From: Thiomicrorhabdus xiamenensis
Lineage (GTDB): Bacteria; Pseudomonadota; Gammaproteobacteria; Thiomicrospirales; Thiomicrospiraceae
Length of the DNA stretch: 64,000 nucleotides
Direction of reading: 5' to 3'
Assembly (NCBI RefSeq): GCF_013282625.1
Contig: NZ_CP054020.1
Location: 2,294,001-2,358,000, forward strand
Under the pieces are notes generated by a model. The model was not told where the DNA came from. It worked only from the letters and a program-made list of their open reading frames with translations, and did not search any database. The translations under genes were made by a program, and so were the position numbers. The first letter of the stretch is position 1; the number at the start of each line of letters is the position of its first letter. Below are positions 51,257-52,577 of the stretch, in pieces.

Positions 51257-51347
51257 GCTGAGTAGCGAGATTAATTCTAGGAAGACTGCGGGAGCGTACA
51301 ACTAGTACGAGACCAAAGTCTGACAACGAAGTAACTCGCTAATCAGC
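51257..51347. repeat. Structured intercistronic element, copy 1 (after gap)
   Basis: This element of about 91 bp begins 15 bases beyond the gap stop. Outer stem GCTGAGTAGCGAG/CTCGCTAATCAGC (12 of 13 pairs), inner stem AGACT/AGTCT, and hairpin CGTAC-AACTA-GTACG. Unpaired blocks GCGGGAG and ACGAAGT are shared with copy 2 at 52486-52577, while the stems differ by paired changes. There is no T-run, so it is not a simple terminator. Confidence 0.7.
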
Positions 51348-51361
51348 TAGAAACCTATTTC

Positions 51362-52363
51362 TTAGTTACTACCTACGTGACGAACAACACGCATCATGTT
51401 ACAAGTGTAACCATACTCGTTGTCGTACCAAGCAACGACTTTAACGAAAGTAGGATCTAGAGCGATACCTGCAGTTGCGTCAAAGATAGATGGGTGAGAA
51501 TCACCACGGAAGTCAGTAGAAACGTTAGCTTCTTCAGTGTAACCAAGAACACCAGCCAGCTCGCCTTCAGAAGCAGCTTTCATAGCAGCCTTGATGTCTT
51601 CCATTGAAGTTTCTTTTTCTAGTTCAACAGTTAGGTCAACTACAGAAACGTCAGAAGTCGGTACACGGAAAGCCATACCAGTCAGTTTACCGTTTAGAGC
51701 AGGTAGTACTTTACCTACTGCTTTAGCAGCACCAGTAGAAGAAGGGATGATGTTCTCTAGGATACCGCGACCACCGCGCCAGTCTTTCATAGAAGGACCG
51801 TCAACAGTTTTCTGAGTTGCAGTTGCAGCGTGAACAGTCGTCATAAGACCACGCTTGATACCGAAGTTGTCGTTAAGAACTTTAGCAACCGGAGCAAGAC
51901 CGTTAGTCGTACAAGAAGCTGCAGAAACGATCGCTTGACCAGCGTATTCGTTGTGGTTTACACCGTAAACGAACATTGGAGTAGCGTCTTTAGAAGGCGC
52001 TGACTGAACAACTTTCTTAGCACCCGCATCGATGTGCGCCTGACAAGTTTCTTCAGTTAGGAAGAAACCGGTACATTCGATAACTAGATCCGCACCAACT
52101 TCGTCCCATTTAAGGTCAGCTGGGTTACGCTCAGCAGTGATACGAATAGTTTTACCGTTAACGATTAGGTTACCGTCTTTAACTTCAACAGTACCGTCGA
52201 AACGACCGTGTACTGAGTCATACTTAAGCATGTATGCTAGGTATTCAGGATCAAGTAGATCGTTGATTGCTACAACTTCGATGTCTTGGAAGTCTTTAGC
52301 CGCTGCACGGAAAGCCATACGACCGATACGGCCAAAACCATTGATACCAACTTTAATTGTCAT
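51362..52363 (-). CDS. gap: Glyceraldehyde-3-phosphate dehydrogenase
   Basis: This 333-residue enzyme reduces 1,3-bisphosphoglycerate in the Calvin cycle or runs in glycolysis. The nucleotide-binding [10 protein letters not shown] is at the N-terminus, the catalytic Cys151 lies in [13 protein letters not shown], and [12 protein letters not shown] is near the end. Asp35 at the end of the second strand suggests NAD preference. A longer frame from 52390 is not supported by the family; the ATG at 52363 follows a GGAGAAA ribosome site. Confidence 0.96.
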
Positions 52364-52485
52364 TATCGTTTTCTCCAAATTACACCGCACTGAATGTAGT
52401 GCAGTTTCTTTCTTTAAAATAAAAAGTGTTTGTTAGCCGACAACTTGTTTTTCACTATCATCCACTAACTTTAAATTCTTAATTC

Positions 52486-52577
52486 GCTGCCAGGGCTGGC
52501 GAATTCCAGGCGGGCTGCAGGAGTGTATTGAAATACACGACTGCCAAGCCCAACACCGAAGTCGCCGCTCTAGCAGA
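52486..52577. repeat. Structured intercistronic element, copy 2 (after tkt)
   Basis: This element lies 4 bases beyond the tkt stop and has the same architecture and almost the same length as 51257-51347. Outer stem CTGC...GGCG with CGCC...GCAG, inner stem GGGCT/AGCCC, and hairpin GTGTAT-TGAA-ATACAC. Unpaired GCAGGAG and ACCGAAGT match copy 1. The inner stem changes at two positions on both sides, keeping the pairing. Confidence 0.7.

Follow-up and report, generated by a model that had tools for sequence, protein, structure and literature searches.

The two structured elements that lie behind tkt and gap in the window (the whole stretch of 64,000 nt of the Thiomicrorhabdus xiamenensis genome analysed here) belong to a dispersed family of well-supported mobile origin, with a conserved fold and a strong preference for the sense orientation at gene stop codons. 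On the sequence evidence, we consider it probable that the family is an ERIC-like MITE kept as an mRNA 3′-end hairpin that acts on transcript stability, and, as part of this same explanation, that the tkt and gap elements are old copies of it. The features concerned are:

52479..52585, minus strand: element behind tkt, a 107-nt covariance-model match
51250..51355, minus strand: element behind gap, a 106-nt covariance-model match
27457..27562, minus strand: third window copy, a covariance-model match 8 nt past the stop (27571-27573) of a same-strand ORF
52582..54570, minus strand: tkt (transketolase), ORF upstream of the first element, named from the first-pass annotation and annotated homologues
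51362..52363, minus strand: gap (glyceraldehyde-3-phosphate dehydrogenase), ORF upstream of the second element, named from annotated homologues
49916..51094, minus strand: pgk, ORF of the next gene on the same strand, named from annotated homologues
27571..28371, minus strand: ORF preceding the third copy, of AAA+ type by a GvpN match below the cut-off (85.5 bits vs a curated cut-off of 266.8)

The first-pass annotation had described a pair of structured elements of 91-92 bp. Both are real, lie where it placed them and are family members, but the length given covers the inner part only, the outer stem extending to the tkt and gap stop codons, and the third window copy was missed. The tkt and gap elements share the minus strand with their genes; judging by eye from the translations, pyk and fba are also encoded on this strand of the window. 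Both elements fold far better than dinucleotide-shuffled sequences, with z-scores of –5.60 and –5.32 on the minus strand and –6.94 and –5.47 on the plus strand (0/200 shuffles as good in each case). In the predicted folds, the tkt stop codon (52582-52584) sits inside the outer stem UAAUUC/GAAUUA of its element, while the stem of the gap element reaches outward to include the gap stop codon (51362-51364) as well as roughly 51241-51249, the stop-codon stretch pairing with UUUUCUUGGU. Pairing in the third copy is predicted to begin just past the stop, and the GGC before the stop is also paired. The earlier remark that neither element has a T-run is fair, as the TTTTCTT behind the gap copy is predicted to pair with the stop-codon side.

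A 23-nt block written from both copies, ATTCYAGGMRGRYTGCRGGAGYG, has two matches in the window at up to 3 mismatches (0.00 expected), and in the whole genome (2.59 Mb, a single contig) it occurs in the tkt and gap elements only. Rfam 15 gave no match in the window at the gathering cut-off, and in a relaxed search the sole match over most of an element was RefB11, at 14.5 bits against a cut-off of 54; we found no convincing Rfam identity at either threshold. On visual comparison, neither attC nor REP was retained as a candidate identity.

To examine the fold, stretches flanking gap and tkt were drawn from 30 genomes of the genus, and 31 elements, mostly from these two sites, were aligned over 22 consensus pairs; three gap loci with no element (L102, L106, L120), one with a degenerate copy (L117) and one near-duplicate (L098) were left out. 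The compensatory changes reported earlier from the two window copies hold in this alignment, where, for 20 of the 22 pairs, one or more rows have both partners changed. Paired cells make up 91.8%, against a shuffled mean of 71.6%, and pairing falls to 32.4-43.8% when partners are slid by 1-3 columns. The covariation score is 0.537 vs 0.183 for shuffled alignments, and 0 out of 500 shuffles came up to it; among the five measures the least decisive was further pair types, which 1/500 reached. The rows are related (effective number 4.66), but the slid control preserves this relatedness, and we therefore take the family fold as established.

A covariance model (R1) was built for searches, and at E ≤0.01 it found copies in all 32 genomes of the genus, from 1 to 30 in each; the one genome with a single copy (G019) has a weak one (E 0.004). 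The T. xiamenensis genome has 15, all with E ≤8.3e-4. Beyond the genus, copies were found in 52 of 369 genomes of the class sample (two of them from the same genus) and in 48 of 299 of the phylum sample, 41 of which share the phylum only; copy numbers in these samples are lower bounds because strict filters were applied and only the best 10 or 13 candidates were scored per genome. Thus the check proposed in the first-pass annotation, a covariance-model search, yielded both further copies and covariation beyond the original two, and its suggestion of a dispersed repeat family is borne out in this genome, the genus, the class and the phylum. Full-length model matches are mostly 103-110 nt long (range 94-128).

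Plain BLAST of the gap element against 58 relatives gave matches in five: itself, two near-identical orthologues and two weak matches (E 0.017 and 0.033), both of which pointed on to dispersed copies. The nearest named Gap loci belong to Thiotrichales bacterium DE12.002, Piscirickettsiaceae bacterium CG07 and Thiomicrospira sp. WB1 (94, 94 and 90%), which suggests a Thiomicrospira-like sulfur oxidiser as host. Among 80 loci around the closest Gap relatives in a named collection, R1 matched in one, L014, right behind gap; L015 (Gap 94%) and L016 (Gap 90%) had no R1 match, so that an element at the gap site is not general among relatives. No match to the gap element or to a 152-bp young copy was found in the plasmid collection, and our search of the open-access literature found no account of the element in Thiomicrospira-like bacteria, which does not exclude that one exists. 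In L213, L216, L223 and L116, two or three elements follow a single gene as a short tandem array.

The mobile origin of the family is apparent from five genomes (G029, G246, G347, G307 and G045) in which copies are alike within each genome. Most of these copies share the ends GTAACTRN-TCAG ... CTGA-NYAGTTAC, and a good part of them then carry a tail of about 22 nt ending in GAATAGTTAC or similar; with intact ends the length is 121 or about 152 bp. Among the matches listed, 19 of 41 copies with the 5′ end are flanked by perfect 8-bp repeats, and 26 of 41 by repeats with at least 6 of 8 matching letters (control, 0/41). The end GTAACTAYTCAGC adjoins IS66 transposase (PF03050) matches in six of nine loci (L277, L279, L280, L282, L283 and L285), all of them from G029 and G246, genomes with young copies, and only one IS66-like end is seen per transposase gene. 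It was absent beside the PF03050 matches in L278, L281 and L284, which include both G307 loci, and the PF03050 search gave no match in G045 and G347, both with young copies, or in the T. xiamenensis genome.

For ISDge4, an active element of the IS66 family, PMC12898284 gives GTGACTACTCAGCA and GTAACTGCTCAGCA as the ends, together with a direct repeat of 8 bp. The ends and repeat of this element, from the ISBst12 group of IS66, resemble those of the young copies, although ISDge4 is autonomous. By their GTAACTAYTCAGC-like ends and 8-bp target duplications, the young copies thus look like an IS66-family MITE. The window copies have no recognisable transposon ends or target duplication.

Copies of the family are positioned with respect to genes in a highly asymmetric way. 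In the T. xiamenensis genome, 12 of the 15 copies start at –5 to +9 nt from a stop codon on their own strand; the genes that end there are tkt, gap, guaA, uvrD, dnaK, ilvC, rlmH, ileS, aroC, groEL and two less clear ORFs. Of the other three, two lie between genes for tRNA-Gly and tRNA-Glu, in antisense to the tRNAs, and one lies 53 nt downstream of atpC, beyond a hairpin with a T-run. For wider counts, context stretches were hand-picked among the matches listed (80 stretches with 94 matches and 40 with 41). Taking the range from –15 to +20 nt around the stop of an ORF of at least 100 codons, 89 of 122 genus copies among the matches listed are sense at a stop and one is antisense, this last being the reverse-strand hit of a sense copy. 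With same-strand ORFs of at least 60 codons ending –15 to +60 nt away, the number is 100 of 121 (again among the matches listed); the upstream proteins fall into 33 clusters, and gap accounts for 24 of the 100.

In other families, 26 of 41 copies among the matches listed are sense at –15 to +20 nt and none antisense, while another four lie 21-60 nt from an antisense stop. All nine of the 41 that come from family f184, which has two-chromosome-like assemblies, are sense at the stops of about five different genes: family search identified glyA, secA, gyrB, dnaK and ilvC, and the other four copies lie, by eye, at further secA, gyrB and dnaK ends. The genes dnaK and ilvC therefore carry the element in two families.

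Sorted by transposon ends, 107 of 158 copies without them are sense at a stop and 1 is antisense (among the matches listed). Of 25 copies with an end but no clear duplication, 15 are sense and 1 is antisense, and of 29 with ends and duplication, 11 are sense and 1 is antisense; the element itself does not create the stop in 9 and 5 of these sense cases, respectively. The genomes that supplied young and old copies are partly different, each orthologous copy counts on its own in the orientation, end-type and stop-pairing tallies, and for seven of the 29 young copies the bias could not be judged beyond small numbers. In other families, 25 of 53 end-less copies and at least half of those bearing ends lie away from a sense stop. 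Since the stop-codon bias is weak in young copies and strong in end-less ones, it looks like retention after insertion.

Two of the exceptional positions recur in other species. Six species (L157, L209, L215, L229, L235 and L250) have a copy some 50-55 nt downstream of atpC, past a T-rich stretch. Copies between tRNA-Gly and tRNA-Glu, in antisense, are present in G000, G005 and G028 (L162:1138-1608, L251 and L151), and in G000 the unit of tRNA-Glu, tRNA-Gly and element is duplicated.

The contact between element and stop codon extends to base pairing. Flanks beyond the model ends (14 nt upstream, usually holding the stop codon, and 16 nt downstream) pair with each other, with a mean duplex energy of –5.67 kcal/mol vs –2.58 for swapped flanks (sd 0.17, lowest –3.12; 200 swaps, n=108, G029 copies excluded). 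A further comparison was confined to copies that lack transposon ends and have their stop at –6 to +12 nt. In the predicted folds, at least two nucleotides of the stop codon pair with the far side in 58 of 74 copies from the genus and in 17 of 26 others; with swapped 3′ flanks the values are 170 of 370 and 47 of 130. Repeated copies and elements near locus ends were dropped from the flank-duplex, end-type and stop-pairing tests. The predicted pairing of the stop owes something to A+T-rich flanks, but true partners clearly do better than swapped ones. Local inverted repeats across the gap stop codon, just before the element, were seen in L095, L097, L100 and L101; that of L100 is GGTAACAACTAATAGTTGTTACC.

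Gap and pgk lie on one contig in 28 of 30 genus genomes, L104 and L123 giving no gap-pgk stretch. Directly behind gap, a homologous element is present in 24 of the 28, degenerate in L117 and missing in L102, L106 and L120; directly behind tkt it is present in 5 of 30. On a quick gap gene tree with a midpoint root, gap-site elements occur on both sides of the root and need 3 changes, with the degenerate copy counted as present; the tkt-site element also needs 3 changes on this tree. Elements at the gap site are nearly alike in distant species (L099 and L114) and different in close ones (L108 and L109), and some of the turnover is therefore replacement and not in-place compensation. The element types at this site suggest replacement or recombination at the 3′ end of gap.

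Of the functions named in the first-pass annotation, an intercistronic mRNA element is the best supported by these sequence comparisons, short of proof, on account of the one-sided orientation directly behind stops. The scheme we favour is as follows. A family of about 105 nt would spread as a non-autonomous transposon (MITE) with IS66-family ends of the ISBst12 type and a core shared with ERIC, moved by an IS66 transposase. Copies that land in sense at the 3′ end of a gene would be kept because the transcribed hairpin is useful: it may cap the upstream reading frame and block 3′-to-5′ exonucleases, serve as an endonuclease site, or both. Because the stop codon lies in the base of the element, a terminating ribosome would have to open the outer stem, which could link translation to the cleavage or decay of the upstream mRNA. 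The element might in this way give the cistrons of tkt-gap-pgk different transcript lifetimes. The anatomy fits such an mRNA-level scheme: the orientation is sense, the stop is close to the base or inside it, the stems vary but pair, and the internal loops are fixed. The net effect may be either protection or decay, and REP-like stabilisation would be an alternative within the same class of explanation.

A purely selfish MITE, with the fold kept for transposition and the copies being passive leftovers behind genes, where they do least harm, seems to us rather unlikely. It would agree with the young copies bearing ends and 8-bp target duplications and with the variable number of copies found per genus genome. 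Yet copies that have lost both ends still keep their pairing, also outside the model, and the gap-site element is found on both sides of the genus tree. Avoidance of harm alone also does not readily explain the ratio of sense to antisense among end-less copies, as an insertion just past a gene should be about as safe in one direction as in the other.

Transcription terminators or attenuators at gene ends would equally be strong hairpins placed in sense directly behind stops, and a 5-pair terminator-like hairpin does lie at 51268-51255, inside the gap element; a scan of 49800-54700 gave 12 terminator-like sites vs 4.1 expected. The tkt element, however, has no U-run at its end and no terminator-like site was found there, and the atpC copies lie behind a hairpin that already has a T-run. 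Moreover, terminator function does not need conserved internal-loop sequences. We regard this explanation as improbable. A DNA-level element, that is, a cruciform or a protein site for nucleoid proteins or gyrase, is very improbable: long inverted repeats and folding of either strand would suit it, but a near-palindromic DNA site should work both ways, and the orientation bias and the tie to stop codons speak for the transcript.

The preferred reading, a mobile repeat retained as an mRNA 3′-end hairpin, bears on ERIC: to our knowledge, neither what this repeat does nor what moves it has been settled since it was described in 1990-91. The family and E. coli ERIC have the core TGCGTTG / GTC-hairpin-CTCC / CGCCTTG in common, with the blocks in the same order and orientation, closing pairs outside them and a long stem-loop. 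E. coli ERIC (consensus from Table 1a of PMC2759123) scores 29/29 on the core blocks, a value reached by 0 of 1500 shuffles (maximum 25), and one typed young copy also scores 29/29. Each of the two window copies reaches 25, which does not exceed the top ERIC shuffle. Salmonella SeRU-1 scores 26 (0/1500 shuffles), and the negative control, Yersinia pestis RU-2, scores 20, with 1253 of 1500 shuffles as high. These scores are to be read with the block choice in mind, which was made with ERIC already known and not blind, and the shuffles control for composition only. R1 itself matched E. coli ERIC with 16.1 bits (E 0.0058 in 3.1 kb), at the best place in the locus and over the apical part only, as expected if the ERIC inner stem is longer.

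The differences are equally evident. ERIC, also known as IRU or RU-1, is 127 bp long in enterobacteria, while the present family is about 20 nt shorter and has a short inner stem. ERIC ends in TATACCC/GGGTATA, with TA at the termini and duplication of a TA target, whereas young copies have GTAAC... ends and the 8-bp duplication. The table entry for ERIC in PMC2229807 gives a 7-bp TIR, a TSD and TA at the termini, and section 10 of that paper describes an orientation-dependent effect of Yersinia ERIC on upstream mRNA. As length and ends were tested and differ, we call the family ERIC-like by its core and do not file it as ERIC.

Vibrio cholerae ERIC (a 103-long model) is described in PMC2267715 as 20 bp shorter than that of E. 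coli and Y. pestis; the paper explains the shortness by eroded ends and reports no predicted fold. The Vibrio element is thus similar to ours in length, but stems of the present copies fold and their shortness lies in the inner stem. REP and BIME are likewise dispersed hairpins behind genes, hypothesised (PMC3733652) to act in mRNA stability, termination or supercoiling; the present element is larger than these and has conserved internal loops. We found no description of an IS66-ended MITE with an ERIC core in the open-access literature.

An ERIC core inside a MITE with IS66-like ends provides a candidate transposase. The one-sided placement at stop codons and the compensated stems lead to a testable hypothesis, in which a mobile repeat has been domesticated as a translation-coupled mRNA 3′-end signal, in this case on two central sugar-metabolism genes of a probably autotrophic bacterium. 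More tentatively, one could imagine that the ERIC core is a portable mRNA-3′-end module older than ERIC itself, carried by different transposons (the TA-ended ERIC of enterobacteria and, here, elements with IS66-like ends) and fixed in one orientation in many Gammaproteobacteria and relatives. Its base would then hold the stop codons of housekeeping genes, in two families those of dnaK and ilvC, as a translation-sensing switch for the decay of the upstream message.

Two more tandem hairpins precede pgk at 51157-51240 of the window, the first of which (51205-51240) is terminator-like with 16 pairs. They may be a gap terminator or a pgk leader, and as the first of them lies just past the gap element, gap and pgk might be transcribed separately. 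A similar hairpin together with a AAATTAAATTTNCTTGT...AAATTTAATT block was seen by eye before pgk in about 18 of 28 species of the genus.
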